Below are positions 30,690 to 52,229 of a stretch of 64,000 nt of DNA, piece by piece. Within the stretch, counting starts at the first letter, position 1; every line of letters begins with the position of its first letter. Made by a program: the position numbers and the translations under genes. The stretch comes from Methanofollis fontis (lineage in GTDB: Archaea; Halobacteriota; Methanomicrobia; Methanomicrobiales; Methanofollaceae), in assembly GCF_004297185.1 (NCBI RefSeq), contig NZ_PGCL01000001.1, positions 682,001 through 746,000 on the forward strand, read 5' to 3'. A model generated the notes under the pieces. That model worked only from the letters and a program-made list of their open reading frames with translations, did not search any database and was not told the origin of the DNA.

Positions 30690-31325
30690 ATGGCGCTCAG
30701 TGATGTCAAGCCGACCCGGTCCGAACTGATCAACATCAAAAAGAAGATCAAGCTCTCGGAGCGTGGCTACAACATCCTCAAGATGAAGCGCGACGGGCTG
30801 ATCCTTGAGTTCTTCAAGGTGCTGAAGGAGGCGAAGGACACCCGGGGTGGCATGCTCATGAAGTACGAGCACGCCCAGGAGATGATCGCCCTTGCGAACA
30901 CGGTCGAAGGAACGATCGGGGTGAAGGCTGCGGCGTTCTCCGTCCAGGAGAACCCGGAGATCACCCTCAAGTCCAAGAACATCATGGGCGTTGTCGTTCC
31001 CGAGATCGAGGCGTCAAAGGTGAAAAAGAGCCTGGTCGAGCGTGGATATGGTGTTCTCGGCTCGAAGTCCGTCATCGACGAGACGGCCGAGGCCTATGAG
31101 GAGCTCGTCGAGGCGATCATCGAGAGTGCCGAGATCGAGACGACGATGAAGCGTCTGCTCGACGAGATTGACCGGACAAAGCGGCGTGTGAACGCCCTTG
31201 AGTTCAAGGTGATCCCGGAACTGAAGGCGGCGGCCGCCTTCATCAAGATGCGCCTCGACGAGATGGAGCGCGACGAGCTCTCCCGTCTCAAGAGGATCAA
31301 GGCGAAGAACGCGGCTGAGGCCTGA
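30690..31325 (+). CDS. ahaD: A1A0 ATP synthase subunit D
   Basis: The 211-aa product has the long antiparallel coiled coil of subunit D, with 'VKPTRSELINIKKKIKLSER' at the start and 'RTKRRVNALEFKVIPELKAA' near the end. It is the central rotor axle. It is the last gene of the operon and is followed at once by a T-rich terminator whose sequence is repeated 1.16 kb downstream. Confidence 0.95.
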   Translation: MALSDVKPTRSELINIKKKIKLSERGYNILKMKRDGLILEFFKVLKEAKDTRGGMLMKYEHAQEMIALANTVEGTIGVKAAAFSVQENPEITLKSKNIMGVVVPEIEASKVKKSLVERGYGVLGSKSVIDETAEAYEELVEAIIESAEIETTMKRLLDEIDRTKRRVNALEFKVIPELKAAAAFIKMRLDEMERDELSRLKRIKAKNAAEA

Positions 31326-31342
31326 TTCTTCTCCTCTTTTTT
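31320..31342 (+). terminator. T-rich terminator of the ATP synthase operon; copy 1 of a 23-bp direct repeat
   Basis: The ahaD stop codon runs straight into a pyrimidine tract ending in T6, a normal archaeal terminator. These same 23 bases occur again at 32483-32505 in the same orientation. Confidence 0.7.
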
Positions 31343-31475
31343 GTGTATTTTGCCTGACTGTTGTGACCCCTCCGGGTGAGGGGATCGTCGACGGTGTGTT
31401 CGATGGTGATGGATGCCTGGATGAAGGTCTGAGTCCTTTGTATTGCGGCAGTGTTGATGCGTTCTGAGCATCTCC

Positions 31476-32333
31476 TCAACTGATCTTTCTCAATGCAATC
31501 TCTTTGTTTTTCCTTGCATCGGCATCATTCGGGTCGATCTGGAGTGCCCGGTTGAAGCACACGAGCGCCTCGTCGTGGCGGCCGAGGTTTCCAAGCGCGA
31601 CACCTTTTATGTTCCATGCGGCATTATTGTTCGGGTTGATCTCGAGCGCTCTGTCACAGCAGGTGATCGCCTCGTTGTGGCGGCCGAGGTCTCCAAGCGA
31701 ACTACCTTTAGTGCTCCATGCGGTATGATCGTTCGGGTTGATCTCGAGCGCTCTGTCACAGCATACGATTGCCTCGTCGTAGCGGCCGAGAATTTTAAAC
31801 GCGAGACCTTTGATCCCCCATGCGTATTCCATATTCGGGTCAATTTCAAATGCTCGTTCGGCGAGTTCGATCGCTTTATGGGGGTGATCCGGTATGCAAC
31901 CGAGAGCTTCTTCAAGACATTGTACAGCATTTAATGTTCGCTTCTTCTCATTTTGTTTTGCGATCCATTGCAATACCTGGTCTCTGCCTTCTTTTGCTTC
32001 TGCATCATTCGGGTCGATCTGGAGTGCCCGGTCGAAGCAGGCGAGCGCATCGTCATGGCGACCTAACTTGATGAACGAAAGGCCTTTCATACTCCACAGT
32101 GGAATCTGCGGATCGATCGCGATCCCCCGGTCACAACATTGTATCGCCTCGTCGTAGCGGCCGAGTCTGGCGAGCAAGATGCCCTTTTTTCCCCACACAA
32201 TTGCATCATTCGGGTCGATCTGGAGTGCCCGGTCAAAGCAGACGACCGCATCGTCGAAGCGGCCCATTTTATTAAACACGACACCCTCATTATACCAGTC
32301 TACAGCGGTTTTCCCTTCATTTTTTCCTGGCAT
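31476..32333 (-). CDS. TPR-repeat protein
   Basis: The 285-aa product consists of about seven 34-residue tetratricopeptide repeats. Two blocks of three or four are very similar to each other (for example AWNIKGVALGNLGRHDEALV and AWSTKGSSLGDLGRHNEAIT), separated by a divergent linker around residues 120-155. TPRs form a protein-binding groove; no catalytic domain is attached. The underlying DNA units, about 102 bp long, are also nearly identical, which suggests recent repeat duplication. It is oriented opposite to the ATP synthase and tubulin-like operons, and lies between two copies of a 23-bp direct repeat. Confidence 0.88.
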   Translation of the reverse strand: MPGKNEGKTAVDWYNEGVVFNKMGRFDDAVVCFDRALQIDPNDAIVWGKKGILLARLGRYDEAIQCCDRGIAIDPQIPLWSMKGLSFIKLGRHDDALACFDRALQIDPNDAEAKEGRDQVLQWIAKQNEKKRTLNAVQCLEEALGCIPDHPHKAIELAERAFEIDPNMEYAWGIKGLAFKILGRYDEAIVCCDRALEINPNDHTAWSTKGSSLGDLGRHNEAITCCDRALEINPNNNAAWNIKGVALGNLGRHDEALVCFNRALQIDPNDADARKNKEIALRKIS

Positions 32334-32482
32334 GAATACATTCTCTCCCTTTCATGTATCCGCTACGATGAACAGCGGTTACGTCAACCGAAACCTCCAT
32401 TGCGCCTATCGCTGCATGAAAATCCGATATTCTCGTATTGCCGTTCGGTTATTATAGTCCTATTCATTTGAAGTCGCCTGAT

Positions 32483-32505
32483 GCCTGATTCTTCTCCTCT
32501 TTTTT
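32483..32505 (+). repeat. 23-bp direct repeat, copy 2 (ahaD terminator copy)
   Basis: These 23 bases are identical to 31320-31342, and the match extends five more bases upstream with one mismatch. Here they are not linked to a coding sequence. The two copies bracket the TPR gene. Confidence 0.85.
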
Positions 32506-32942
32506 CTCGAAGTCGCCTTTTATGTCGCGCCCTCTTGATGAGGTGAACGATGTGGTGGAATGCCGGACCGCCCGGTCGTTTGATGGATTGTTCCGGGGAG
32601 ATTTAGATGGTCAGGATTCGATAAATGTTCACTGCATAAATTTAACCTGATTCTTTCCGTATCAGCCATGGATCGAGAGTGGTGATGCGAATCCCATCCT
32701 GAAAGGGGGTTTTTCAGAGGAGAAAAAATAAAAATTTTCCCTAATACGCCATCTTTTCCTGAGCAGAAAAGGAGAGCAACGCATGCGATGAGAGGAAGTA
32801 CGATGGATCAGTGCCGGAGACAGAGATCATCCGGGGTCTGGTGATTATGTAAATTATTTTCGATAAAAAAAACAAGATAGTATTCTTGAATATTTTTTAT
32901 ATCGACATTATAGTGTTCGATTTCACCGAAGGCAAATAATAA

Positions 32943-32955
32943 TGCTTATATTTCC
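32943..32955 (+). promoter_or_regulatory. TATA box for the tubulin-like operon
   Basis: gcttatatttcc is centred about 25 bp upstream of the ATG at 32974, which predicts a leaderless transcript. A second AT-rich element (tttttatatcg, about 32890-32900) lies further upstream. Confidence 0.5.
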
Positions 32956-32973
32956 ATGTGCGTATGATCTCTC

Positions 32974-33750
32974 ATGATTAAGGGAGATATACGTGGACTG
33001 AGGGCGTTTGGTATATTATTTTCCTTTCTTGTTCTGATTCTGGTTGGAAACGCAGCTGCGATGGATGTTGTTGTTCTTGACAGCACGATTGATGAAATCC
33101 ATCCAGAAGGTGACATAGTTGAGTATACGCTCAAGATCAGTGGAGTTCAACCGCAGGTTTCAGTGATAGAACTTGAAACGGATCTACGACCGTATGGTCA
33201 ATCATTTTTATGGAACGTTACCGATCCTGGATTTCTGGAACTTCAGGATGGTCAACATCAATTTCAGGACCAATCGATCCAATTTGAGGTGAATAAGAGC
33301 GTCAACACTCCTGCTCTGATTCACGTCACGGGTCAGGTGCCACAGATTACCGAAATTGTTCAGTCCGAGGGACTTGTTATAACAAAAACCGATGCGCAGA
33401 CGACCGGGTATACCCATTACAGGGTTCAATTTTTTGATGAAGACGGATTTGTCGTCGGAAATGCTTTCACTGAAGTATTTGATATCGAAATTCCGGATGA
33501 AACGGACTTTTTCGATCGTTTGAGTTCTGTTCAGGATCCCATGCTGCGCAATCTTGTCATCGATCTGCATGACAAGGGGTTGAAATATGAGGCCAATACG
33601 CTGCTGGATTATTCGGATAAGAAACCACTGGGTGTTTCATTGCCCCTGGTTATCGTGATCCTCGTTGTTATCGGTGGAATTGCGCTGTTTGCTGGATACA
33701 GGATCGGGTATGCTCGCGGATACAATGCCAGCATCAATGATAATGATTGA
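32974..33750 (+). CDS. Bitopic membrane protein, first gene of the tubulin-like operon
   Basis: The 258-aa product has an N-terminal hydrophobic signal (ILFSFLVLILVGNAAA, about residues 14-29), a beta-rich extracytoplasmic domain of about 185 residues, and a C-terminal transmembrane helix (PLVIVILVVIGGIALFAGYR, about 216-236) with a short cytoplasmic tail ending NASINDND. I do not recognise the extracellular domain. It lies 19 bp before the first tubulin-like gene, on the same strand, so it is likely part of that operon. It could be the surface-exposed sensor or anchor of the system. Base composition is much more AT-rich than in the ATP synthase genes. Confidence 0.75.
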   Translation: MIKGDIRGLRAFGILFSFLVLILVGNAAAMDVVVLDSTIDEIHPEGDIVEYTLKISGVQPQVSVIELETDLRPYGQSFLWNVTDPGFLELQDGQHQFQDQSIQFEVNKSVNTPALIHVTGQVPQITEIVQSEGLVITKTDAQTTGYTHYRVQFFDEDGFVVGNAFTEVFDIEIPDETDFFDRLSSVQDPMLRNLVIDLHDKGLKYEANTLLDYSDKKPLGVSLPLVIVILVVIGGIALFAGYRIGYARGYNASINDND

Positions 33751-33769
33751 ATTTTGACGGAGGTAAATA

Positions 33770-36700
33770 ATGGTTTCACAGGCATTTAATTCCGAAAAAA
33801 AAGAGTTTCAGATGCCAAAGGATCTTTCGATCATTGCGGTCGGAGGGTGTGGAAAGAAACTCGTGTATCACCTTTGTGAACATGAGTGGTTTCTGAGAGA
33901 TTATCTGAGTGAAAACCGGACATTGAGGATTTGTGTCCTTGATACTGATTCAAATCAGAGAAAAAATGACATTGAACGTGCAGATCATGTCAACAAGACC
34001 ACTGAAGAAATGATGCGCCAGATGGGGGGGATGGGTGGCAACATTAATATGGAGTATTATTATCTCCCTGATCTGGCAAATGTCGGACGAATATCCGGTC
34101 TTACCGGAAAATCCGTCATCGAGCAGGTGAAGAGCTGGAAAGGGGAACCCCATGCAGATGTCTGGTGGATGAATGATCCTGAGAGGGGATTCGAGTTTTC
34201 GGATCTCAAATCCATCGATAGTAATATTATTGATGATTTTGGCGGCGGTGTCCATCGGAGACGTGCGATTTCCAAGGCAGTTTTTTATAAGGCGATCTCT
34301 CAGAGTGGGGATACGAATTTCCCCTCGTTCCCTGGTCAGGGCGATATCGCACTGGTCGTCGGTCTGGGCGGCGGCACCGGGTCGGGAATGTTCATCGATC
34401 TGGCCAGATACATCAAGGGGCTCTCCGGACCCACCCGGAAGATCTGGCTGTTCGGTGTGATGCCGGCGATTGTTGAAGGGGAAAAAGAACAGTTGAATGC
34501 GGGGATTGCACTTTCTGAGATTGAATATCTCAATTTGAAAGGAGAGAAACTCTTTCATTATTGCATCCTCTCTTCTCTTGGACCGACGGGATACAGGGAT
34601 GGTGCAGACCGGAAAAAGGAGGTCCTGGACTACGACCATGCCTTCCCCTATCTTTTGATGAATGCATTCTATCTGCCGACTGCTGACATATATGATATAA
34701 TCGATGCACGAAAGGATTACTCGGGCTTTATTTTTGCAGATTCTCACGTCATCGAGTATCCTGTTGAAGAACTAAGGAATTTGAAGGCCGAATTTGAGAA
34801 TGTGGTCCGGGAAATTACTGAACTTGGGAAAAACAGGAAACAGATCAATGAGAAAGTGCTGGAGATCCTGAATCAGATAGAGCACAAATACCCTGATCAA
34901 CTCATCGATGAGGTTGAAATCGTTACAACCGGTGAGGACCTGACGTTTGTGAAAGGGGAGATAGAAAAACTCGAGAAAGTCTGGAGCAATGATATCCCGA
35001 AATTATTGAATTATCAGACATCTGTGGAGATTGATTATTATCTGAACAACAATCTGCCTGAAGATATCAGGAATCTCGATGAAATCAAAACGTACGATAA
35101 ATTGATCGAGTTTGTTGCACGATTGAAAAAGTCGATGGATACGGGCAGCAAACCTCTTGAAAACGAAGATGATAAGATTCTTTATTCAAGTATTACCGAG
35201 TATCTGGCCCAGATCGAACAACTGGCATTGCTGCAAAAGAGAATTCTTCGCATCAAAGAGCATGAACTGCGTGTTGTCCTGAAGAAAATTCTCTGGGGTG
35301 AAGAAGATCTGACCCATGTCATGAGCCAGGTTACATCAAAGTTCGAATCCCTGAAGAATGATGCCCTTACAAATGAAAGCAAAAAATCTTCCGCAATAGA
35401 AAAACGCGAACGATTGCAGCAAAAAGAGGCAGGTATCAGGGAGAGGATCAAATCCGCCTGTAATGATGCAGGGCGGCAGATTGATGAATATGAGGGCCAA
35501 TGCGATAAAATTCGATCGACCCGGAGCAGGGAAGAAGAACTGGCCAATGAATTTGAGAAGATGCACCTGAACCTGCAGGAACAGGTCACCGATCTGCTCT
35601 CGAAAAAACAGGCCGGGATCAATAAAAAAGCATGGTGTGTCAAGGCCGATTATGTAAAGATACAGGCATTGATCGATTCTTTCTCCCAGGAAATCGGGCA
35701 ACCGGGAAAACTTGATTATCTGAAGGAATTTGCTGAAGCACTGGTCCTTTACTACTACTATGAGTACAGGAAGGAATCTGCTGAAAATATCGGGCTGTTC
35801 GATAAGATACTTGGGAAGAAGCCTGATATGGCGATGATTGAAGCCAACATGACTTCAAAATTGAATAAAATGAAGGCGATCGCCGATCAGGAAAACGATA
35901 AATTACGTCTGAGAGAACCCCTTGATTTTGAGATTCTGGACAGGTTCGTATCGGACGAGATGACAGATGATCTCGAGTCTGAAAGAAAAAGGATTATTGA
36001 GACAATCCTCTCTGATCTCAACCTTGGTTCCGGAGATTATTCTGCTCTCCGCGATGCATTTGAGTGTGAAGGTACGCAGGAAATTATTGATTTCCTGAAA
36101 GGGAGATTACTGGATCTGATAAATGAGAAGGAGCGGTTTGGAGAGGAAATTAATCAGACCTCCCGGGAAATCGATGCAGCCGAATCCACTATCAACGCCC
36201 TTCAGAACACTCTGGCAACATTCTCTTTAATTGAGAATATCATTGAAGACACCCTGAAAGAGCGCAGATTGTACAATCTCCATGATTCGGGTCTGGAGAC
36301 CAGCTTCGAAACCATCGATAAAAAGCGGCAGACCGGCGATACAACGATCCGGGATAAGTACCACACCCGGTATGGCGGTATCAATCCCGCCGTGTTGTCG
36401 TTGATTGCCGATGACTCGACCATGGGGGTGCTGGACTCAAAGGATGAAGGAAGGGAGGAACTCGATCGCGTTCTTGGCCTGGTCAAGGGAACCTATCGGA
36501 ACCTTGTGAATGAAGGGTTGCTGGGTGTCAAGAACTTTAATATCAGCTATGGCGCCTCGCATACCGATTCATGGAATTTTGAGAGGGCTGCCCTTGTGCT
36601 GTCGTCTCCTTCACAGTATATGACCGACAACATCTCGAATATCAACGAGGACATCTGCAGGACGATTTCAGGCGACCTCTCTCTCCAGCAGATGCATTAT

Positions 36701-37027
36701 GCAAAGGTGGCGGCACATAATTACAGCAAACCCTGGGAAATCGGTCTCACGTTCTTTGCTGCTGCAAGCTTTTTCGACAATATCTCTCCACTGATGACCG
36801 GTGGCGGCTACTGGACGAAATATGCGGATAACAGAAACAATATTCTTCATCATGTACTGTTTTTGCAGAACGGGCAGTATGTCGTCAGAAAGGACCTGTT
36901 GAGGCTGACTGACGCGGCTGAAATCGCCGATATGGAAAGAAATGAAGATGATCAGAGCAAAGGGGGAGCAAAAAGCCGTATTCTGGAGTTGTACGAGGAA
37001 AAAGATATCCGTGAGGCGGTTCGCTGA
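33770..37027 (+). CDS. Large tubulin/FtsZ-like protein, paralogue 1
   Basis: The 1085-aa product has a tubulin-superfamily N-terminal domain: a G-box GGCGKKLVYHL (residues 25-35), an acidic strand ICVLDTDSNQ, and the signature GGGTGSGMFID with GGGTGSG at 200-206. FtsZ and tubulins use this loop to bind GTP phosphates. The fit is to the large prokaryotic 'tubulin-like' class (Pfam Tubulin_2 as I recall it), not to FtsZ. Residues about 340-870 are charged and coiled-coil-rich, and a conserved C-terminal block follows (YGASHTDSWNFERAALVLSS). No membrane segment is seen. A good gGAGGt site precedes ATG 33770. The stop overlaps the membrane GTPase gene start. Polymerisation is inference. Confidence 0.82.
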   Translation: MVSQAFNSEKKEFQMPKDLSIIAVGGCGKKLVYHLCEHEWFLRDYLSENRTLRICVLDTDSNQRKNDIERADHVNKTTEEMMRQMGGMGGNINMEYYYLPDLANVGRISGLTGKSVIEQVKSWKGEPHADVWWMNDPERGFEFSDLKSIDSNIIDDFGGGVHRRRAISKAVFYKAISQSGDTNFPSFPGQGDIALVVGLGGGTGSGMFIDLARYIKGLSGPTRKIWLFGVMPAIVEGEKEQLNAGIALSEIEYLNLKGEKLFHYCILSSLGPTGYRDGADRKKEVLDYDHAFPYLLMNAFYLPTADIYDIIDARKDYSGFIFADSHVIEYPVEELRNLKAEFENVVREITELGKNRKQINEKVLEILNQIEHKYPDQLIDEVEIVTTGEDLTFVKGEIEKLEKVWSNDIPKLLNYQTSVEIDYYLNNNLPEDIRNLDEIKTYDKLIEFVARLKKSMDTGSKPLENEDDKILYSSITEYLAQIEQLALLQKRILRIKEHELRVVLKKILWGEEDLTHVMSQVTSKFESLKNDALTNESKKSSAIEKRERLQQKEAGIRERIKSACNDAGRQIDEYEGQCDKIRSTRSREEELANEFEKMHLNLQEQVTDLLSKKQAGINKKAWCVKADYVKIQALIDSFSQEIGQPGKLDYLKEFAEALVLYYYYEYRKESAENIGLFDKILGKKPDMAMIEANMTSKLNKMKAIADQENDKLRLREPLDFEILDRFVSDEMTDDLESERKRIIETILSDLNLGSGDYSALRDAFECEGTQEIIDFLKGRLLDLINEKERFGEEINQTSREIDAAESTINALQNTLATFSLIENIIEDTLKERRLYNLHDSGLETSFETIDKKRQTGDTTIRDKYHTRYGGINPAVLSLIADDSTMGVLDSKDEGREELDRVLGLVKGTYRNLVNEGLLGVKNFNISYGASHTDSWNFERAALVLSSPSQYMTDNISNINEDICRTISGDLSLQQMHYAKVAAHNYSKPWEIGLTFFAAASFFDNISPLMTGGGYWTKYADNRNNILHHVLFLQNGQYVVRKDLLRLTDAAEIADMERNEDDQSKGGAKSRILELYEEKDIREAVR

Positions 37028-38571
37028 TGATTATCAACAACCGGAAAAGGCTGTTTGTCATGGTGGGGGCGATCATACTTGCCGTCATCGTGGCCCTCCT
37101 TTTTATCAATCTGTTCCAGATCTACTGGTTTATCGGTGCACCCTATGAGGTGAAACTTGCCATCGATCTACTCTGCGGGTTGTTCCTCGCCGTCTCTATC
37201 GGGATGCTATTTTCCTCTGATTCCCGTTTTAACGGTTTGTTATTTGGAATATTGTTCGGTTATGTTATCTGGCATTTCTTCCCGTATGGATGTATCGTGC
37301 CTGAGGCCCTCGGGATGGGTTTTTTTCTCGGGATTGTTCTGGTGATTTTTGTTCTTCTCAGGAACCGGTTTGATATCCTGGCAACCAGTGCGAAGGTATT
37401 CCTGACGATTGCCTTTGCGGTGATTGTTGGGTATCTGCTCTCCAGTTTCAGTACCAAATCAGCGACCATGGTGCCGGATGCGACGGTTGCAATCGGAAAA
37501 ATCACCGCTCAAAACGCCTTTTTTTATGGGAGCGGCATTCTTGTTGCGACAGTGTTTTTCATCGTCCTGATGTACTCCATTGTGGGTGTTAAGGGCTCGA
37601 ACGTGTTTGTATTCGGTCCGAGGGGGGCCGGAAAGACATTTTTCCTCCTTGGTCTCTGGGGTCAGATGGCGAATATGGCACGAACCTTCCCTTCGCAGGT
37701 GATCATTTCTTCTGATCCAGAGGACCGGAAAAATCTCAGGCTCACCGATCTCTATGCAATGGTCAATGGTGGAAGAGGAGAGTGGAGGAGGACCGAATAT
37801 TATAAACTCAGCATGTATGAGATCTTTTCGAAAAAATTCTTTATTTCCCCTGTTGTCTGGACGATTGTTGATTATGCGGGGGAATATTATGACAAGGTCA
37901 ATGAGAGAAATTATCAGGACTCGATCGAAGCCCTCAGCGAGGCCTTCGAGATGCCGGTGGATGAACTCGAAAAGAGGTCGGGCACCCTCGAATTTCTCAA
38001 AGAGATCGTGGATCACCACCTGGATAAGCTCTACGGGACCGGTCTTGCCCGGGCACTGAATATTTCGACGATGTTCAGTCATCTGGGACGCTCCGGAAAG
38101 GTGATATTTCTCATCGACGGTGAGAAACTCCTCACGCGTGAGGGGATGGCGGACCTTTCCCGTGAATTTGGCGACTATATCCAGACCCTGATGGACCTGG
38201 AGGGGAGTGCCTGGTTCAAAATATTTGGCGGCAAGAAAAAGTATGCCCTTGTGGTGACGAAAACAGACATGCTTGTACAGAAACACCCCGAACTGCATGC
38301 TTTGATCAGCAAAAACGGTGATTTTTACTCTCTCTCTGATATCCCTGACCAATCTCCAGAAGCAGAACTCATTGAAGATACGATCTTCAAGATCCTGGAA
38401 AAAAACCTCTCGTTTAAGAGTCTTGTCAGTATGATGAACGACATTTCTGTCTCGTTTATCGCGGTGAGCGTGGACCCGACTGCAGAAGCGAATATTGCAT
38501 CCGACGGAGAGCAGGCGCCCGGTCAGATTGTGCCGTGGAGATTCAATGAGGTGATTGGATTTGGCTCCTGA
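37027..38571 (+). CDS. Polytopic membrane protein with C-terminal G-protein-like P-loop domain
   Basis: The 514-aa product has about six transmembrane helices in residues 8-187. A cytoplasmic P-loop domain follows. Walker A is GPRGAGKT (197-204), a DxxG-type switch reads DYAGE (282-286), and a base-recognition motif reads TKTD (411-414, like NKxD). These three motifs in order indicate a TRAFAC-type GTPase. Its start shares a base with the stop of the first tubulin-like gene, so the two are translationally coupled. A membrane-embedded GTPase beside a tubulin-like protein suggests a nucleotide-controlled link between filament and membrane. ATPase activity cannot be excluded. Confidence 0.8.
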   Translation: MIINNRKRLFVMVGAIILAVIVALLFINLFQIYWFIGAPYEVKLAIDLLCGLFLAVSIGMLFSSDSRFNGLLFGILFGYVIWHFFPYGCIVPEALGMGFFLGIVLVIFVLLRNRFDILATSAKVFLTIAFAVIVGYLLSSFSTKSATMVPDATVAIGKITAQNAFFYGSGILVATVFFIVLMYSIVGVKGSNVFVFGPRGAGKTFFLLGLWGQMANMARTFPSQVIISSDPEDRKNLRLTDLYAMVNGGRGEWRRTEYYKLSMYEIFSKKFFISPVVWTIVDYAGEYYDKVNERNYQDSIEALSEAFEMPVDELEKRSGTLEFLKEIVDHHLDKLYGTGLARALNISTMFSHLGRSGKVIFLIDGEKLLTREGMADLSREFGDYIQTLMDLEGSAWFKIFGGKKKYALVVTKTDMLVQKHPELHALISKNGDFYSLSDIPDQSPEAELIEDTIFKILEKNLSFKSLVSMMNDISVSFIAVSVDPTAEANIASDGEQAPGQIVPWRFNEVIGFGS

Positions 38572-38599
38572 GTGTGCTGTGAGGAATGGGGGTATCTGA

Positions 38600-40306
38600 A
38601 TGACCGTGAAATATGGATTATATGAACCGGACGGCAAGCATTATTCGGGTGAACTGAATCGCTACCATGATCGTGCCGTACTTCTGGCCGCAGGGAGGGT
38701 CGGCTTTTATTTCGAGTCGGATCGGGACAGGATCATTCTCGGTTCCGCAATCGATGTCCAGAAAAAAGGCAAGCGGCAGGATTTACACATCTATTTCATG
38801 GAATGCCAGATTGAGTCATTTCAGGTGAGTGTTATCCGTGATTTTTATCTGAATGCCGTTGCATCTCTCCGGGACGCCGGATATGAAGTCCTCAATATCT
38901 GGGGAGATGAAAGGTTTGTTTCATCGCTCGACACCCTCACTCTGGGATATTCCGGTCAGTCCGGACCGGTGCTATCCTACCTTTCAGGCAAGATTGTTGC
39001 CCAGAAACCCTCGTACGCCTTCACAAAGGACTTTAAACGGGCGATGAGTCTGGTTTCCGGGGTCCTTGAAGTGATGCAACCGATTCTCTTTCTGGGGTAT
39101 CGGTGTGCCGTCGGCAGGGATGCGATCGACCGGGAGAATCCCCCTGATCTCTCGGTCCTCCCGATGAAACCCTACAATCAGCATGCCGCCAATCTGGATT
39201 CCGGCCAGATCGATGATACGGATGCATCGACCTATCAACGATTCGGGAAGGTGTTGATCGATAATAGATCTTCTCTTTTTGGAAAAGAACAGCGGATCGG
39301 GACAAAACAAAAATTGCTCAATGCTATTGAAGATACCATTAGAAGGGGATTAACTCCTTCAAAGAGACTTGATCATTATTCACGACTGGATGAATTGAAT
39401 ATCCCCAGAACCTCCTCAAATACGATTGAAGATGCAGTAACAGCTGTGATTGAAAAGAACAATACAGCCTATCTGGAGCGCTATCTCTCCGGTAATTTCA
39501 ATCAACGCGATTTTCAGAAGTATGTCTATGAACTGCCTGCACTGCAGTTCCTGGATTTCTTTACAAAGGCAAAAGAGACATTGCTGAAAATGAAGACTGC
39601 AGATGGGAAAAAAATCTCAAACAATCTCTCGAACCATGCCAGACAACTCCAGACGGTCGCAAACCAGTTGAAAGAGAAACATGATCCCGAGATCGCTCCC
39701 CGGAAACCGGATAAAGACTCTCTCATGGATGAGAAATCCAATAGAAGGGGAGGTTTTGCGGGTGAGTTCAATCTAAAAAAGATCCTTTTAATTGGCGGTA
39801 TCATCGGACTGATTATTGCGATAGGAGTTGCCGTCACAATGTTCGCTCCCGGGATTTTTGGTGGTGACGGTCCGACCGATGGCACAGTCCCGGGGTTGAA
39901 GTCGGAAGCAGGGCCTGAAGAGCCAATAACGGTCCCATCCGATGACGGCAGGGTCAGACTGATATACTCAAATGATTCTGTCTCAATAAACGGGGCCGGC
40001 CCGCTAAAAATTGTTCACACAGAGGGTGTACCGAAAATCGGAAATGGTGAATGGTTTAATTATGACGATTCGTACTACACCATCGAACCTGATGTCCGGT
40101 TTGATCCTCCAGCGGAGTTGATCTTTACCGTTGATGATAGAAATCCCGATCAGATCTATATTGGTCATAAGTCTTGTTCTGCCCTCAACTGGACCCGTGA
40201 AGACCCATCCATCGATGGTCAGGACCTCACTCTGACCATCCATGAATCAGGAATGTATGCATTATTTCTCGAGAATGTCACTGATGCACCTTCAGGGGGA
40301 GTATAA
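38600..40306 (+). CDS. Single-pass membrane protein with large cytoplasmic domain, unknown
   Basis: The 568-aa product has a soluble N-terminal domain of about 390 residues (start MTVKYGLYEPDGKHYSGELN), one transmembrane helix at about 395-420 (ILLIGGIIGLIIAIGVAVTM), and a 145-residue extracytoplasmic beta-rich tail. There is no signal peptide, so the N-terminus is probably inside. I do not recognise either domain. In bacterial neighbourhoods of tubulin-like and double-GTPase genes, GTPase-associated proteins are found; whether this is one requires a profile search. It sits 28 bp after the GTPase gene. Confidence 0.72.
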   Translation: MTVKYGLYEPDGKHYSGELNRYHDRAVLLAAGRVGFYFESDRDRIILGSAIDVQKKGKRQDLHIYFMECQIESFQVSVIRDFYLNAVASLRDAGYEVLNIWGDERFVSSLDTLTLGYSGQSGPVLSYLSGKIVAQKPSYAFTKDFKRAMSLVSGVLEVMQPILFLGYRCAVGRDAIDRENPPDLSVLPMKPYNQHAANLDSGQIDDTDASTYQRFGKVLIDNRSSLFGKEQRIGTKQKLLNAIEDTIRRGLTPSKRLDHYSRLDELNIPRTSSNTIEDAVTAVIEKNNTAYLERYLSGNFNQRDFQKYVYELPALQFLDFFTKAKETLLKMKTADGKKISNNLSNHARQLQTVANQLKEKHDPEIAPRKPDKDSLMDEKSNRRGGFAGEFNLKKILLIGGIIGLIIAIGVAVTMFAPGIFGGDGPTDGTVPGLKSEAGPEEPITVPSDDGRVRLIYSNDSVSINGAGPLKIVHTEGVPKIGNGEWFNYDDSYYTIEPDVRFDPPAELIFTVDDRNPDQIYIGHKSCSALNWTREDPSIDGQDLTLTIHESGMYALFLENVTDAPSGGV

Positions 40307-40329
40307 CTCAATTTTTTGAGGTCGATGGT

Positions 40330-41850
40330 ATGGGCTCTGAATGGCGTTTTCTGAGGGGTGCACTCTGTCTTCTTCTTGTATTGTCCTGTGCGTATTCTGT
40401 GTCTGCAGAAGAAGACGAACAGTTGAAATTTGGTGAGATTGCCGTTTCTTCAACCCCTGAAGGCGCGGCTATCTATGTGGACGGTAAAGATACGGGTTAT
40501 GTGACCAATCGCCGCATTATGGATCTGATGCCGGGAGTGCATACGGTACAGGTGACCTATCCAGGATACCGCGATGATGAGAAGATAGTGGACGTGATCG
40601 GCGGCGAGCGGGTTTTTGTCAATTTTGAACTCAAACGAAAGATCGGTTCCCTGACGGTGTCAACAGAACCCGAGGGAGCTAAGATCTATGTTGACGGTTA
40701 CTGTAAGGGTACATCGGATACGCTTGTTTCGAGTATTCCGGAGGGAACCCATACGGTCATGCTCTCACTTGATGGCTACAGATCATATTCAAAACAGCTG
40801 CAGGTGGAAGACGGCGACACCCTCCATATGTCGCACACCTTCGAACCCCTGCCGACAACAGGCACTGTCGTCGTCAACTGCACGCCGGATGGGGCGTGGG
40901 TGTATATTGACGATGTCTGTTATGGTGTTTCCAGGACAACGATTTCCGATCTCGATCCCGGCAGCCATGAGATCAGATTAAAAAAATATGGATATTATAA
41001 CTGGTCTTCCCCGTTTGATATCAGAGCAGGGGAAATTTTAGAATTTAACAATACCATGGAGGCGAAGAACGGCACTGTCGCCATATTCTCGTTCCCGGTT
41101 CGGGGAGAGATCTTTATTGACGGTGTTTTTTTCGGATCCGGACCATATGAAGGGGGATGCCCGCAGGGTGAACACCTGCTGGAAGTGAAGGCCCCGGGAT
41201 TTGAGGAGTACGCGGATCGGATTCAGGTACCATACGACCCGATCAGTGTTCCCGTCACTCTGAACCCCCTGGCGCCGGCCGCCATCGTGGAGGCCGAAGA
41301 AAAAATTGAGGTAAACCGAGTTTTCAACCCGAAAAATGCTGAAATGGAACTTGATAGCGCCAGAGGACTCTTATTGGAGGAGAAATATCATGAGGCATAT
41401 CTCAGCGCACTGAATGCGTCGAGATGGGCGGAGGATGTCGACGGGGACGGTGTTCCCAATAGTTTTGATTTCTGGACGGCCATCACAAATGAGGCCGTCT
41501 ATGCGGCACCTTTTGTATTGTTTGTCATGATTGGAGGTATGGTTGGATTTGACTGGAGGCGATGCAGGATCAGACCGGATGTGGATCTCTGGCTCGATGA
41601 AATGGGACCTGACGGTACCTGGATTGTTCATGTGACTCCTTCAGTGAACCGTGGGTATTATCTCACCATGCTCTGCACCGTCTACCTTGATGATGACATA
41701 AAAGAGAGAATTGTAGCTCCCGGCAAACGGGAGGTGAATCTCGGACATATCCCGCCAGGCGTCCATCGTATCCGTGCGGTGGTAGACGTCAAGCAGCATC
41801 GGTACGGGCGCTCGGAGGTATCGAAGTCGATTGAGGTTGAGGTCTCATAA
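40330..41850 (+). CDS. PEGA-repeat membrane protein
   Basis: The 506-aa product has a signal peptide (GALCLLLVLSCAYSVSA, about residues 10-26) and four PEGA-type repeats in residues 35-320. Examples are 'SSTPEGAAIYVDGKDTGYVT', 'STEPEGAKIYVDGYCKGTSD' and 'NCTPDGAWVYIDDVCYGVSR'. A transmembrane helix at about 391-408 (YAAPFVLFVMIGGMVGF) is followed by a C-terminal beta-rich domain of about 95 residues. PEGA domains are extracytoplasmic and often bind other surface structures. The protein could therefore tie the system to the S-layer. The start follows the previous gene by 23 bp. Confidence 0.82.
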   Translation: MGSEWRFLRGALCLLLVLSCAYSVSAEEDEQLKFGEIAVSSTPEGAAIYVDGKDTGYVTNRRIMDLMPGVHTVQVTYPGYRDDEKIVDVIGGERVFVNFELKRKIGSLTVSTEPEGAKIYVDGYCKGTSDTLVSSIPEGTHTVMLSLDGYRSYSKQLQVEDGDTLHMSHTFEPLPTTGTVVVNCTPDGAWVYIDDVCYGVSRTTISDLDPGSHEIRLKKYGYYNWSSPFDIRAGEILEFNNTMEAKNGTVAIFSFPVRGEIFIDGVFFGSGPYEGGCPQGEHLLEVKAPGFEEYADRIQVPYDPISVPVTLNPLAPAAIVEAEEKIEVNRVFNPKNAEMELDSARGLLLEEKYHEAYLSALNASRWAEDVDGDGVPNSFDFWTAITNEAVYAAPFVLFVMIGGMVGFDWRRCRIRPDVDLWLDEMGPDGTWIVHVTPSVNRGYYLTMLCTVYLDDDIKERIVAPGKREVNLGHIPPGVHRIRAVVDVKQHRYGRSEVSKSIEVEVS

Positions 41851-42069
41851 TCACCAGTACCTTCCTTTTTTCCACCCTCCCCGTGTCCGGTCAATCTCTC
41901 CCTGAGGAAACTCTATGGATTGTCTGCCCGGGCAATTATAATTCTTCATTTTTTAATCGATCGATAATACTATCATTGTTATGATCATATGTGGATATAT
42001 GCTGGAAGAAAGGATTATCAGAACGTTTTTGACTCCCTGTTTAGAAGGAGGTCCCCGGAAACTGTCTGA
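41851..42069. promoter_or_regulatory. AT-rich gap with possible internal promoter
   Basis: This 219-bp gap before the second tubulin-like gene contains a TATA-like ggatatatgc at 41992-42001 and an aaggaggt ribosome site at 42045-42052. The second gene may therefore be transcribed on its own as well as from the operon promoter. Confidence 0.4.
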
Positions 42070-45000
42070 GTGGCGGTGGTATGTGTGACAGACCATAATG
42101 ACCCGTCCATGGTGATGGCGAGGGTTCCTGATAATCTGACCATTGTCGGACTGGGTGGATTTGGAAAAAATGTTGTATTTTCCCTTTCTGAGCAGGAGTG
42201 GTTGCTGGATCATTTTCTGGGAAAAGGGAGATCGTTACGGCTCATTGGTATTGATACCGATATTCAGGAAAAGCAGCGTGATTTCAATAGACTAAATTCA
42301 TATATCGATTCAATTTCGAAAATGAAATCCCTAAAAGGGTCAGATGGTGGCGATATATCCGTTCATTATTACTGTCTGCCTGATAATCCTGTTTTCAGAA
42401 CGAAATCCACTATCATTGATGGAAGTAGCGATTTGTCGGAGAGCATTGACCGGGACAATGACCATTCAGTGAACAATCCTTCAGATCCGGATCCCGTGAA
42501 CGCCTATCATTCAGTCGTTAATGACGTGTGCGAAGGAAAATATGATTTTTCCGGCGGAGTGTCCAGACAAAGGGCAATCGGAAAATTGACCCTCTCCGGT
42601 GTTCTGGAATCTGATCCCGATTTCACCACGGCGATCTTCGCCGGGTACGGACCGGTTGCGATCGTTGCAGCACTCGGCGGGGGGACGGGTTCGGGGATGT
42701 TCATCGACATTGCGCGGGAGATTGGATCTGCAACCGGTCGAAAAATCTGGTTCTTTGGCATCGTCCCCTCTCAGGAAGAAGGTGAGATAGAACAGTTCAA
42801 TGCCATCGTTGCCCTCACCGAACTTGAATATTCCAATGTCCTCGGTGAACCGATCTTTGATCATACTGTCCTTGCCGATATTACGCCTACGAAATATGCA
42901 AACGAATATGATCCGAGTGATAGAATTATCCGGAATTTTGATGCATCATTCAGTTATCTGTTACTCAATGCTCTTGCTCTTCCTGAAGAAGTAATAGGTC
43001 CTGGTGTCCATACTCTGACTGAATATTCTTCAATTATTTCTGCAGATGCGCATGTTTTACGCTATCCCATAGGGTCATACCTCGAATTGAACAGGAGGGC
43101 GGAAGAACTGCTGAAATCGTTTGAAGCATTGTTTCGGGAGTATGCGCGCCAATTTGAAGCAAACAACGAATGTTACACGTCATTGTCCTCGAATATGGAG
43201 CGCATGGAGACGATGTACCGTGAATTTTTTGTGGAGGGAGAAAACACTGAAGATTCTGAGGGGGCCTCCAGATATGTGCTCCATATGGTGGAGGGTGTTT
43301 TCAATCTTCTTGATTGTGAATGTGTTCGGCATCACCGGTACACCGTACTGGACGCGATTTCTCTGTCGTTCAGACAAATGATTTCCGTCGAGGGCAATGA
43401 AGAGAACGGGTCTGATCGGTATCAGAAGCTCCTTGATACCTTATTATCAATAGAGGAAATCTTGAGCGCGTATGAAGATACGATAATTTCTCCTGGTGAA
43501 AAAAAGATCCTGGACCTCATTGTGGATATATTCACGCACCTGAAATTATTGGCCGACATTCAGGGTAAAATTCTACGTATACGAGATACTGATGTCCGTA
43601 ATCTTCTCCTGAATGGGCTACGTGGAGTAACAGGCGGGAAAGAATCAGTTGCTTCTCTGAAGGAAAATATCTTCATCCTTCAGGCCCGGCTGGAAGAATA
43701 TGAAAAAGCAATCCGGGAATATACGTCCAGACAGGCTGAATTTGAAAAACAACGCTCCGATGATCTTTCAGATGTTGAATTGCATTGCAGGGAATTGAAA
43801 GAGAGTGTACAGGCCTATGTTTCACGTCGTGAGGTCCTCCTGGAGGCTGCGAGGAAAGAGAAGGACATTTCACTGCGTTTTAATGAACTGATGGCACGGC
43901 TACAGAACAGATGTAATCGTGCGGAAGAAAAGAATGCCCCCTGGATCGGTATTGATCGATGGATCGAAGACGCCGATATCGACTCTCTCCATTCAGAAAT
44001 TGAATCGCTCTCCAATTTGACGGGAACCGATCTGAAATATCTGGAAAAAGTGGCTGAAATGGCCGTTCATTATTATTATGATGAATATGGGGTCCGTTTT
44101 GTCCGCAATGCAGGGATTTTCAGCAAGATGCTGGGGCACCTTCCCCATCCGGAGGTACTGTCCAGGGAACGTGATGAGAACCTGAATACGATTCGTGCAA
44201 TTGTCAGTGTGGAAGAGGATGTGTTCCAGGTAACTGAGGATCCATTCGGGCTGGTCCTCTCCCCTCAATTGGTGACGGAGCGATTGCACCATGAACTTGA
44301 CTCTGCCGGCCAGGAAATTTTGAATTCACTTGTTTTCGAGTATCATCTCAATGATGAAGAGCGAGAAAAGGTATACGATACCCTGAATCAGGGGAGCAGC
44401 ATGGCCATTCTCGTCTCAATCCGGGCACTTCTCGACGATATCATGGAACAAAGAAAAGGGTATGCGTCGGAAATTGATTCATGTACACGTGAAATACGTG
44501 AAAAAACTGAAATTTATGATGGTCTGCGATCTCAACTGGCATTTTATCGGGATGCCGCCGATCTGATCCATTTAACCGGTAATATTCTTCCAATTTCTAA
44601 ACCGGATACAGCACATTATGATGAGAGTGCGGAACGGTATAATGAATCATACAGGAATGTATCTGCAACTCAGGTCGATCCCTATTATTCATGTTGCGGT
44701 GCGGACAATCACTCCGTTCTTCCAGATCTGACGGAAAGATCTGATCTCGGGGGATTTGATCTGACGGAAGAAGGAAGGGAAGAAGTGTTGAGTATCGTTG
44801 ATGCGGTAAGCATGAAGTATCCGGACCTGATCGACGAGAAAATTCTCGGCATCAATGGTTTTTCATATAAATACGCAATGAACCTCACCGACAACTGGCA
44901 TATGGATCGCCGACTCTGGCATTATGACCGTGCGACTCTTGTTGTTTCGTCTCCCTCTGCCTATCTCCTGAACAATGTCGGTGAAAAGGGTCGTGATTTC

Positions 45001-45360
45001 AGTAAAAATATGACGATGAAGCTGCTTCTCGAACGGATACATGATGCATGTGTCGTCGGGCAGAATCTGTCACACCCATGGGAGACTGCTATCTGTTTCT
45101 ATGCTGCATCCGGTTTTCTTGATAATCTCAGATTGTTTGATCGGGAGGGGTCTCCCTGGAAATTCTACCAGCAAAACCAGGATATGATCCTGCATCATGC
45201 GGCATTCCTTCACGCCGGTCGATATATTGTCAGGGATAGGGTTCTGGACCCCACTCTTGCTGCCTCTATTGCGGACTCCGGTGGATCAGGTGAACAATCA
45301 GGGGATAATGATCGGAAAAATCCGGTTCTTGATCTCTACACGGAAAAGGTTCTCAATTAA
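42070..45360 (+). CDS. Large tubulin/FtsZ-like protein, paralogue 2
   Basis: The 1096-aa product parallels the first tubulin-like protein throughout: G-box GLGGFGKNVVF (27-37), acidic strand LIGIDTDIQ, GGGTGSGMFID with GGGTGSG at 203-209, a coiled-coil middle, and the same C-terminal block (ATLVVSSPSAYLLNNV, then LSHPWETAICFYAASGFLDN). The N-terminal P-loop-like element ends GKN, closer to tubulin's GCGNQ than the GKK of paralogue 1. The start is unsure: GTG at 42070 lies 17 nt after aaggaggt, and ATG at 42109 would remove 13 residues. The two copies share limited residue identity by eye, so the duplication is old. Confidence 0.82.
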   Translation: MAVVCVTDHNDPSMVMARVPDNLTIVGLGGFGKNVVFSLSEQEWLLDHFLGKGRSLRLIGIDTDIQEKQRDFNRLNSYIDSISKMKSLKGSDGGDISVHYYCLPDNPVFRTKSTIIDGSSDLSESIDRDNDHSVNNPSDPDPVNAYHSVVNDVCEGKYDFSGGVSRQRAIGKLTLSGVLESDPDFTTAIFAGYGPVAIVAALGGGTGSGMFIDIAREIGSATGRKIWFFGIVPSQEEGEIEQFNAIVALTELEYSNVLGEPIFDHTVLADITPTKYANEYDPSDRIIRNFDASFSYLLLNALALPEEVIGPGVHTLTEYSSIISADAHVLRYPIGSYLELNRRAEELLKSFEALFREYARQFEANNECYTSLSSNMERMETMYREFFVEGENTEDSEGASRYVLHMVEGVFNLLDCECVRHHRYTVLDAISLSFRQMISVEGNEENGSDRYQKLLDTLLSIEEILSAYEDTIISPGEKKILDLIVDIFTHLKLLADIQGKILRIRDTDVRNLLLNGLRGVTGGKESVASLKENIFILQARLEEYEKAIREYTSRQAEFEKQRSDDLSDVELHCRELKESVQAYVSRREVLLEAARKEKDISLRFNELMARLQNRCNRAEEKNAPWIGIDRWIEDADIDSLHSEIESLSNLTGTDLKYLEKVAEMAVHYYYDEYGVRFVRNAGIFSKMLGHLPHPEVLSRERDENLNTIRAIVSVEEDVFQVTEDPFGLVLSPQLVTERLHHELDSAGQEILNSLVFEYHLNDEEREKVYDTLNQGSSMAILVSIRALLDDIMEQRKGYASEIDSCTREIREKTEIYDGLRSQLAFYRDAADLIHLTGNILPISKPDTAHYDESAERYNESYRNVSATQVDPYYSCCGADNHSVLPDLTERSDLGGFDLTEEGREEVLSIVDAVSMKYPDLIDEKILGINGFSYKYAMNLTDNWHMDRRLWHYDRATLVVSSPSAYLLNNVGEKGRDFSKNMTMKLLLERIHDACVVGQNLSHPWETAICFYAASGFLDNLRLFDREGSPWKFYQQNQDMILHHAAFLHAGRYIVRDRVLDPTLAASIADSGGSGEQSGDNDRKNPVLDLYTEKVLN

Positions 45361-45561: not shown

Positions 45562-46626
45562 TTATAGCATTTTGCCCAGATAGATCTTGAGGACGATGAG
45601 CGTGACAGGGAACAATATCGACATGATCAGTTTCATTGCAATATCGATCTTAAATGGATACAATCTCAAATTTCTATATTCATTGTAGGTGTTCTTGATT
45701 TTTGACAGCTCATTGAAGGATATGAGTTTTTGAATGGGATCAGAGTGATTCTCTCCTATCTCCGCTGATTTTTGCTTAAACTGGTTTCCCAGTGTCTCTA
45801 ACTTCTCCCATCGAATTCTATGGGCCGTCCTGTTCACCTGTGCAGTGGGGTAAATAAATGATATCGCAATCAGGATCGGATAGATTGAAACGAAACAGTA
45901 TATTGCGAGTGCAATGGGCGGGATCGATTTTGCAATCTGAAACAACCACGGGAAGAAGAGTGCCGCTGTCGCTGCCAAGATAGTCGTTCCTATGGCGAAT
46001 TTGCCGATACAGAACATTCCCCCAACTTCATCCGGGTGGAGGGGGTCGATGTTGATTTCTTTATGCGATATTTCATATACGATCTGTTGTGTTTCTATTA
46101 CGTCAGTTACACCGGAGGAGATCAGGTAGGCAATCCATCCGATTGCACATGTATATATGATGAAAAATGGATCGAAGAGAGTGGTTATGCCACTTCCCAC
46201 CAGATATTGGTCTGTGCAGAACAGTGAACCTGTAAGATATATGCTATAATCAACTATGAGAAAAAAAGTGAAAACCAAATAAAAATTCTTCTGATACCGT
46301 TTGATCGATCTTTCCTTCAGATCGTTGATAAAATTGTGCTCCGCTACGATATGTTCGCAGTTCTTGAAAAATTGTATCAGATGTTTCCGCTCATAGTACC
46401 ATAAAATCCACGGCCCAATATTTATCCACACAATCGCTAGGATGTACCCAATTAGATAGTCGTTCGAGATCTGATCCGCCCGCAACGCCCAGAAGAGGAT
46501 GAATAGCATATCCGGGATCAGACCGAATTTCACGATGCTGGAGAGCAGTGGGTTATGAATTCTGATCGGGACGTCAGATTCGATCACTCTGCTGATGAAT
46601 GAACATTTATCCTTTGATTCTTCCAT
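45562..46626 (-). CDS. Polytopic membrane protein of unknown function
   Basis: The 354-aa product has about eight hydrophobic helices, including LLSSIVKFGLIPDMLFILFW near the start and ILFPVTLIVLKIYLGKML at the very end. A hydrophilic stretch around residues 270-310 (RTAHRIRWEKLETLGNQFKQ) is cytoplasmic or peripheral. I recognise no transporter signature. ATG 46626 has aggag 9-14 nt upstream and overlaps the geranylgeranyl reductase gene by 20 nt, so the two are co-transcribed. Base composition is AT-rich like the preceding island. Confidence 0.7.
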   Translation of the reverse strand: MEESKDKCSFISRVIESDVPIRIHNPLLSSIVKFGLIPDMLFILFWALRADQISNDYLIGYILAIVWINIGPWILWYYERKHLIQFFKNCEHIVAEHNFINDLKERSIKRYQKNFYLVFTFFLIVDYSIYLTGSLFCTDQYLVGSGITTLFDPFFIIYTCAIGWIAYLISSGVTDVIETQQIVYEISHKEINIDPLHPDEVGGMFCIGKFAIGTTILAATAALFFPWLFQIAKSIPPIALAIYCFVSIYPILIAISFIYPTAQVNRTAHRIRWEKLETLGNQFKQKSAEIGENHSDPIQKLISFNELSKIKNTYNEYRNLRLYPFKIDIAMKLIMSILFPVTLIVLKIYLGKML

Positions 46627-47825
46627 AATAATCCTCTCCTGATTGAAACGGGTTGAACCTCCTTCTTCCATGTACGATTTCGATGAGTCTCTCTCCAAAT
46701 AGGGAAATAAAAAATGAAATCGGTTGATCTATATGATGATCAAGGCAGGAGTAGATCAGATCGCGAAGCACTTTTGCATGCTTCATTTCTGGGACGATAT
46801 AGCGCTGGATCAGGTCAAGATAGACCCCTTCAGCACAATTGCCCTCTCGTATACTCACATCGATTGCATGTGCAGCGAGTTCCGCGGTTCTGTGAGCATA
46901 AAAAATTCCTTCTCCAAGAATCGGTTCTGCAAAACCGCCGGCGTCCCCCACAAGGAGTGTATTGTTATGGGCGGGTTTCTCGATGAAATTTCCATAGGGC
47001 AACGGGTAACCTGAAACAGATGTCTTCTCAATGACATCCTGGATGCCGACCTCTTCAAGAAATTTTTCGAATTTTTGTACGATTTTTTTATGACTCTTAC
47101 TCTGGAGGCCGCAAATTCCTATAACCGCCATGTCTTGATTTGGAAAAATCCATCCATATCCCCAGTCTGCAACGCCAAGGAACAGCATGGGCTGTGAGAA
47201 TTTTTTCTGTACCTCGGATATGGAGTTCACGTCCAGATGGTGCATCAACTCTTCGTATTTTATCTTTAGTTCAAGGGCGATTGCAAGGTTTTCATCCCAT
47301 TGCTCTTTATTTTCGGTCGAATCCGGGAGACCTCTCCGCACAATGCTATGTGCCCCATCCGCTCCAACAATATATTTCGAAGAGATGGTCTTTCCAGAGG
47401 CGGTTTTCACACGCCCCTGCATCTGATCAATCTCGATGACCTCGTCGCCCTCGAGAACATCAACGCCGACATCTCTGGCTTTATCGAGTAAATATTTGTC
47501 ATATACAAGTCGATTTACGAAAAAAAATGGAGGTTTCAGTTTTCCCTGCAATACTGACTTGTTCTTCAGATATATTGTATATTGTTCTGCCTGAATGTCG
47601 CAGAATATTTTTTTCGAGCAGGGATTGCACGGTTTCTCCGTACGTCTTCTCTAAAAATCGAATTGTTTTATCGCTTAAACAACCCCCACATAACTTCTGG
47701 CGTGGAAAGGTTTTTTTATCAATTATGAGTGCCCTGTGTCCTTTCCTGGCGAGGAGGTATCCCGCCGATGCACCCGCGGGTCCTCCACCAATGATGACTG
47801 CATCATATGGTTTACTGAACGGCAT
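46607..47825 (-). pseudogene. Geranylgeranyl reductase family flavoprotein, frameshifted in a T8 run
   Basis: The N-terminal part (47825 to about 47520) has the FAD-binding 'YDAVIIGGGPAGASAGYLLA' and CGGC motifs of the geranylgeranyl reductase family, which saturates archaeal isoprenoid chains. The rest (about 47530 to 46607) continues in another frame with 'YIVGADGAHSIVRRGLP' and LLVGDAGGFAEPILGEGIFY. The switch falls at the homopolymer 47520-47527 (T8 on the coding strand). Removing one T joins the halves into one product of about 405 aa without loss. The cause may be a true mutation, slippage-based phase variation, or an assembly error; nothing else in the gene looks decayed. Confidence 0.85.
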
Positions 47826-48157
47826 ATCTAAGATGAAGATAATTGGTTATGATATATGTGTCTTGTTATTTTTTCATTTTATCAGGGCGGTTAAAAATAA
47901 ATTGTACCGTTAATTTTCTCTTATTATGTCGTATTGGCTGATATTATGGATTTTATGGAATCTGGGTGGCGAGCACGGGCGTTCCTCATCTGTATTTAGA
48001 TCCTGAATTCCCTATTTCATAATCGATTATCGATTCGGTCTCATGTCTTGAGAGCAATCTATGAAAATAAGGGGTGATATGTACCCAGGAGTTACTCATC
48101 TGGAAAGAATGCTCCACAAACGAATGAAACGCCATGATTTGAATATTGATTGGGGGT
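47826..48157. other. 332-bp AT-rich intergenic region
   Basis: It contains a TATA-like element (tatgatatatg, about 47852-47862) serving the minus-strand reductase gene at 47825. I see no gene in the rest. The transition from AT-rich to GC-rich DNA falls at its right end. Confidence 0.55.
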
Positions 48158-48832: not shown

Positions 48833-48871
48833 GTCTTTCCATCCCCCTTCTCGCTCCTCTCGATGCCGGTA

Positions 48872-48879
48872 GGTATATA
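48872..48879 (-). promoter_or_regulatory. TATA box for the Thr/Pro-rich surface protein
   Basis: The minus strand reads actatatacc. It lies about 40 bp upstream of GTG 48832 and just inside the alternative ATG frame, which argues for the shorter protein. Confidence 0.45.
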
Positions 48880-49043
48880 GTTTGTTCATACGTCGGACGC
48901 ACCGTGGACCATATCGGTATCACTGGAATTTCCGTGCTTTTATGGCCATACCGCCAATTTATGAGATTTCATTGAATGGTGGTGGCGATGGATGCCGATA
49001 CCGCTTTTTCTGGGCCGTGTCAACCAACCATTGGAGCCAGAGT

Positions 49044-49808: not shown

Positions 49809-49816
49809 GTGTTCAC

Positions 49817-52021: not shown

Positions 52022-52141
52022 GTAATATTTCCCCCAAATATCCCTCCCCGAAATCCGACCGGGCGGGGATTATATTTCCTTCTGTCTGGACCGATACGTG
52101 TTCGGAGATGGCGTCTTTCTGCCCTCCGGTGCGCCAGCAGG

Positions 52142-52211
52142 CGCCGGGATCTATCCCGGCGTCCAGCATCTCCGGGTGTCCGGAAAGCACCGATCTGTCG
52201 GTGCTCTCCGG
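52142..52211. terminator. Two hairpins between the protease and DUF4430 genes
   Basis: The first hairpin (52142-52161) has perfect 8-bp arms cgccggga / tcccggcg. The second (52180-52211) has 14-bp arms with one mismatch around a 4-base loop. The second sits 19 bp past the stop of the upstream minus-strand gene, as expected for a terminator or RNA 3'-end stabiliser. Confidence 0.55.
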
Positions 52212-52229
52212 TGGGTAATAGTCTTAGAT

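Follow-up and report, generated by a model that had tools for sequence, protein, structure and literature searches.

A duplicated ahaD gene end in Methanofollis fontis and recurrent insertion of accessory genes at this locus in other Methanomicrobiales

Defence islands and defence hotspots between core genes are known, and the ahaD locus described here resembles them in that restriction-modification, SIR2, TIR and kinase proteins are among the cargo found at this place in relatives, and differs from them in that the boundary gene is ahaD, pieces of which are left inside the island. Two studies document that integration in archaea can affect the 3'-distal parts of protein genes (PMC6563490; PMC8371274). 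A survey of archaeal integrated elements describes insertion into the 3' ends of conserved genes, an empty site in a relative and arrays of elements in one site, all of which have a likeness at ahaD; the surveyed elements carry short att or target-site repeats and tyrosine recombinases or casposases, whereas the ahaD copies reach about 520 nt, have variable left ends and have no recombinase match near them. Homology-facilitated illegitimate recombination and single crossover of circularised DNA have both been reported in bacteria (PMC3240628), and those systems are like the ahaD case in having one homologous anchor, foreign DNA joined beside it and no dedicated integrase. They are bacterial experiments, whereas the ahaD case is reconstructed by comparing archaeal genomes at one gene. 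Among the titles listed from the open-access literature, none concerned ahaD as such an insertion site.

The window analysed is a stretch of 64,000 nucleotides from Methanofollis fontis (RefSeq assembly GCF_004297185.1, contig NZ_PGCL01000001.1, positions 682,001 to 746,000 of the forward strand). Within it ahaD is the last gene of what looks like an A-type ATP synthase operon, of which Pfam was run on ahaD alone, and its closest named relatives are from Methanofollis (91-93% identical). The original prediction of a 23-base exact duplicate of the ahaD end was borne out: GCCTGATTCTTCTCCTCTTTTTT, which consists of the last codon, the stop codon and the oligo-T tract of ahaD, is present at 31320-31342 and 32483-32505, and a third match is absent from the window and from the whole assembly (2.36 Mb, 22 contigs) at up to 3 mismatches. 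The shuffled expectation for the window was 0.00, and viral contigs contained 0 exact matches. The repeat was extended by blastn to 29 of 31 bases (31312-31342 versus 32475-32505, E 5e-6) and by looser scoring to an alignment of 49 nt at 79.6%, and it is a direct repeat of which one copy completes the target gene. A further copy suggested near 48 kb was searched for there and near pgk and was not found, the best score in 47-54.2 kb being 10 versus 29 for copy 2. No tRNA was detected in the window and no Rfam match in 31000-54200. Elsewhere, exact direct repeats of 70 and 44 bases, about 221 bases apart, lie at 2433-2793. The features of the locus and the lengths of partial ahaD copies are listed in Table 1.

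Table 1. Features of the window around ahaD, and partial ahaD copies downstream of intact ahaD
Feature	Position in window	Strand	Evidence, match or copy length
ahaD, A-type ATP synthase subunit D (211 aa), insertion target	30690-31325	+	Pfam ATP-synt_D 2e-58
Copy 1: last ahaD bases, stop codon and oligo-T terminator, in place	31312-31342	+	Sequence match
Right flank of copy 1, starting GTGTATTTTGCC	31343-31475	.	Resembles native flank in G004, G007
TPR protein gene (285 aa), cargo between the copies	31476-32333	-	Pfam TPR_1 1.1e-73
GAAGTCGCCT, left member of 10-bp direct repeat around copy 2	32470-32479	+	
Copy 2: displaced or copied ahaD end	32475-32505	+	29/31 bases identical to copy 1
GAAGTCGCCT, right member of 10-bp direct repeat around copy 2	32509-32518	+	
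AT-rich island: two tubulin-like proteins, P-loop protein, PEGA protein, others	32974-45360	+	Pfam, composition
Tubulin-like proteins (Tubulin_2), long, two in AT-rich island	33770-37027, 42070-45360		Pfam
Protein with GPRGAGKT P-loop and hydrophobic N-terminus	37027-38571		Sequence reading; no Pfam match
PEGA protein in AT-rich island	40330-41850		
Rest of block: hydrophobic protein, two reductase-like flavoprotein ORFs, secreted-looking and PKD proteins	45562-53393	-	
pgk, next gene after ahaD in relatives	54078-55292	+	Relative comparison
Window copy			31 nt
G037 copies			147 nt at 98.6%, 521 nt at 92.8%, 140 nt at 97.1%
G134 copies			415 nt at 92.0%, 223 nt
G078 copies			289 nt, 115 nt
G057 copies			263 nt, 180 nt
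G155 copy			275 nt
G182 copy			269 nt
G052 copy			249 nt
G082 copy (locus L138)			229 nt, at contig end
G032 copy			158 nt
G110 copies			Three
G118 copies			Two
G098 copies			37 nt, 29 nt only

Gene order was compared over 96 stretches (80 GTDB loci and 16 fetched, some genomes being counted twice). The distance from ahaD to pgk was at most 60 nt in 69 of them, at most 400 nt in 12 more and larger in 5, while no pgk was found in the available DNA of 9 and 1 had no stop codon. In support of the original prediction, relatives carry only one ahaD end and pgk soon comes after it: the two genes are at most 400 nt apart in 10 of 11 Methanofollis stretches, the contig of the eleventh (G007) ending 1.6 kb on without pgk. 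Because pgk lies within 400 nt of ahaD in 81 of the 96 stretches, the accessory block of about 22.7 kb that separates the two genes in the window is an insertion; the stretch before pgk that is common to relatives starts at about 54,000, in the pgk promoter region. The idea that a gene-end duplicate flanks the inserted DNA held in part, since the duplicate does lie beside the insert and the two copies enclose no more than its initial 1.2 kb (a segment of 1.16 kb).

The block gave very weak matches only in PADLOC. Relatives of the TPR protein were similar over part of their length, at best 51%, and in the 12 genomes of the genus no DNA like 32300-32980 or 31323-31480 was found besides these stretches themselves and the ahaD end of the same genome. 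Another tubulin-like protein, 36-38% identical to the first one of the island, is encoded elsewhere in 8 of 11 Methanofollis relatives and in the genome of the window (contig C2). A geranylgeranyl-reductase-like flavoprotein at 46607-47825 is seemingly split into two overlapping minus-strand ORFs, perhaps by a frameshift. Between pgk and the next conserved gene, a 1414-aa beta-helix/PKD protein is encoded at 55946-60190. The 16 stretches downstream of ahaD in relatives contain no match to it, and it may therefore mark another insertion, beyond pgk.

Partial copies of ahaD were sought by blastn (E <=1e-3) downstream of the gene itself. Of 39 selected loci, 14 had such copies, and the window is one of these. 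Both strands were searched, and all 27 matches were on the ahaD strand. The match in G086 is internal, weak and 28 nt long, and the other genomes with copies were accordingly counted as 12, all Methanomicrobiales. Copies were present in 14 of the 33 loci in which pgk was displaced or not found (19 had none) versus 0 of 6 with pgk within 400 nt. Among the GTDB loci (n=76) the corresponding counts were 3 of 8 versus 0 of 68 (Fisher p 0.0008). Two control gene sets, both small, were used. Neighbouring genes at the GTDB loci had a downstream copy in 3 of 258 cases (best E 4e-8), and at E below 1e-6 the excess for ahaD was modest (3/76 versus 1/258, p 0.038). In 20 arbitrary stretches from eight genomes a copy was found for 6 of 222 genes, two of them full-length and looking like tandem paralogues, and an ahaD copy for 7 of the eight genomes (all but G042), figures that measure repeat-richness and not event frequency, as the genomes were picked mostly for having ahaD copies. 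Among the controls, the gene-end copy at L255 is possibly a downstream gene whose C-terminus is the same.

On their left side the copies begin at points between ahaD bases 154 and 623 that differ among genomes, though such edges could be blurred by decay. With looser scoring, 24 aligned stretches were compared at their right ends: eight stop 9-21 nt past the ahaD stop codon, three at 27, 46 and 59 nt, and the window match at 30 nt; two from G134, where the called stop is shifted, finish at the oligo-T tract; and ten end inside ahaD (one at a contig end). Some copies are internal pieces lacking the gene end. Early matches at L090 (38 nt) and in G017 (a T-rich 33 nt) were absent from the filtered blastn results and are uncounted; that at L090 (about +401 to +439), where a flank in common with the displaced copy of G155 begins, may be real. 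L138 was weak in the early comparison, and its genome G082 carries a copy further on. At L211 (G134) the intact ahaD seems frameshifted in its last codons, with one base missing and the downstream copy in frame, possibly through a sequencing error. Accessory or defence genes follow ahaD at L215 (G042) and L223 (G012) and no ahaD copy was found there, so the spot may also be used in a way that leaves no visible fragment.

In five genomes (G037, G057, G078, G118 and G134) a displaced copy is followed by a right flank that a sister genome has close behind its intact ahaD. The clearest pair of alignments is that of G037 to G012, at 97.6% over 330 nt and 98.1% over 699 nt. In G012 a gene with Schlafen/AlbA_2 and helicase-like domains stands directly after ahaD; in G037 the flank of G012 type follows the displaced copies at +2070 and +7949, and another flank and gene follow the intact ahaD. 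The occurrence of one flank behind two displaced copies of G037 indicates that duplication within the locus also occurs. The displaced-copy flank of G118 matches G052 (80.6% over 598 nt), that of G078 matches G082 (86% over 267 nt) and also G042, that of G057 matches G082 (82% over 282 nt), with the flank of its second copy matching G122 and G078, and that of the second G134 copy matches G122 (72% over 281 nt) and also G078. G155 and G182 were rejected as cases with an empty site, since their flanks align with a sister only at some distance from its ahaD stop, namely 428 nt for G155 against G177 and 239 nt for G182 against G148. No sister flank was matched by the G037 copy at +4395, the copies of G032, G052 and G098, two of the G110 copies, the second G118 copy or the window copy, and for the first G078 copy flank matches were found only away from the ahaD end. 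Intact right flanks are common to some genomes (for example G037 and G032, 79.6% over 534 nt), and no donor was found for the window or its TPR segment. These displaced native flanks show, by comparison of sister genomes, that insertion at the 3' end of ahaD recurs across the order and displaces the old gene end, and to this extent the original prediction is supported; such displacement appears in the relatives and not in the window.

For the window, the reading held to be on balance probable is that the two copies delimit a small insertion at the 3' end of ahaD, in which the TPR segment would have entered by recombination anchored in ahaD. Donor DNA containing an ahaD 3' end and the TPR gene would have recombined with the resident ahaD; the new segment would then stand behind a complete ahaD, and the old gene end, of which 31 bases remain recognisable, would have moved by 1.16 kb and against an island already resident. 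This could have taken place by a single crossover with a circularised donor fragment carrying the ahaD end and its neighbour genes, or by homologous pairing in ahaD at one end and illegitimate joining at the other. Since the anchor would be shared ahaD sequence, an integrase in cis would be unnecessary, and a donor from a related species would account for the native-looking flank of copy 1. Anchored recombination would leave same-strand pieces of its anchor gene behind an intact ahaD, and such pieces are what was found (27/27 matches; 14/39 loci). That the window copy belongs to the same class as those of the relatives we infer from the sequences, as we do the order of events and the recombination route. 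Against this reading, the window copy is 31 bases long with a right flank that matches none of the intact ahaD flanks compared, and an insertion that never touched ahaD would also fit the flanks; moreover, the 10-bp repeat around copy 2 is not accounted for, and there is no copy on the pgk side. The 19 displaced loci that lack a copy, the modest excess of ahaD over control genes and the duplication within the G037 locus weigh against it too.

A second explanation is a local templated patch, in which about 29 bases of the ahaD end would have been copied into the island edge, with duplication of a 10-bp target, by template switch or by capture of a short fragment during replication or repair, and the TPR gene would have arrived independently with no bracketing scar. 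Shortly downstream of the ahaD stop codon, 6 of 7 Methanofollis genomes with a free ahaD end have an oligo-T tract and next to it GT (G004 and G007-G011; G002 differs). The right flank of copy 1 resembles the native flank of G004 (p 0.008) and G007 (p 0.021), similarity to the other four of the six relatives compared not being significant, so that ahaD was perhaps never displaced. The right flank of copy 2 (CTCGAAGTCGCC) has no likeness to the native flank in any of the six and matched no intact ahaD flank among the sister genomes compared; read alone, the flank comparison points to copy 2 being a copy pasted into the island edge. With such a flank the bracketed TPR segment is at best a late insertion, nested next to an island that predates it. 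The 29 nt between the two GAAGTCGCCT copies match ahaD 31317-31345 at 26 of 29 bases, an exact repeat of 10 bp or more was reached at 17 of 20,000 random sites in 30-54 kb, and a pair of the kind around copy 2 occurs once in the genome. A patch, the main competitor of the first reading, is nevertheless considered unlikely, as it leaves unexplained the ahaD pieces downstream in 12 other genomes, which include longer copies and, in five genomes, displaced native flanks.

Site-specific integration by an integrase, with the ahaD 3' end as attachment site and the element or its integrase later lost or acting in trans, is less probable again and has a small chance of being correct. An intact ahaD is kept, several copies are found in one place and the eight right ends 9-21 nt past the stop would suit it. 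In this sense of site-specific the original prediction was not sustained, because the variable left edges are unlike a fixed attachment core, ten of the 24 stretches finish inside the gene, and no tyrosine or serine recombinase match was found near ahaD in the genomes searched. Phage_integrase (PF00589) was absent from the window contig and from the ahaD-downstream stretches (18 genomes, 17 with a match), the nearest downstream matches being at about 21 kb (G155) and 19 kb (G182). All others lie on a different contig or at a distance above 50 kb, several of the ahaD contigs searched being short. Those distant matches in G155 and G182 are probably the conserved Xer gene. Resolvase (PF00239) matches, present in 15 genomes, were all far from ahaD, and Pfam gave no integrase among the larger ORFs of the window block, to which the scan was applied. 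The lack of a nearby recombinase and the varying left edges fit recombination anchored in ahaD homology, and this route is preferred over a lost integrase.

Chance similarity or a terminator tract in common use, the latter being what would have refuted the original prediction, is scarcely credible: oligo-T tracts do follow ahaD in many relatives, but the string has two matches genome-wide at up to 3 mismatches, and among 65 window ORFs whose stop-codon tails of 50 bases were each matched against the following 4 kb, the highest score was the 28 of ahaD, with 16 for the runner-up. A shared hairpin terminator was also rejected, as copy 1 with its preceding bases folds at -16.6 kcal/mol (z -0.82), no better than shuffles, and copy 2 hardly folds. 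At 31290-31340 the end of ahaD could pair with some of its coding sequence (AAGAGGA/TCCTCTT, GAAGAA/TTCTTC), again not above shuffles, and scans for sigma-70 promoters and hairpins gave nothing beyond shuffles.

The cargo at the ahaD end of relatives, as classified by PADLOC, comprises type I restriction proteins in G012, a type II methylase with CARF/STK-AAA-like and effector-like proteins in G078, a ThsA-like SIR2 protein in G110, a TIR protein and a kinase in G042 and an HEC-06/Orf5-like protein in G057. The ten proteins concerned were preselected as defence-looking and indicate presence, not enrichment, and G012 and G042 have no ahaD copy of their own. ParE, MazE and PIN proteins were further found by Pfam.

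It is tentatively proposed, as a possibility somewhat short of probable, that accessory and defence genes of Methanomicrobiales have at the 3' end of ahaD a landing site which needs no integrase and renews itself, and that the window would be a small and late round of this process. Each insertion would keep ahaD intact and leave a fresh fragment as homology for the next exchange, and shared core-gene homology would explain both the repeated use of the spot and the persistence of an intact ahaD. The locus also cautions that a gene-end duplicate alone is no proof of an integrase. If the proposal is true, a conserved energy gene of methanogens could collect accessory and defence genes next to it by means other than a dedicated recombinase, and partial ahaD copies would provide a sequence marker for finding and ordering such acquisitions.
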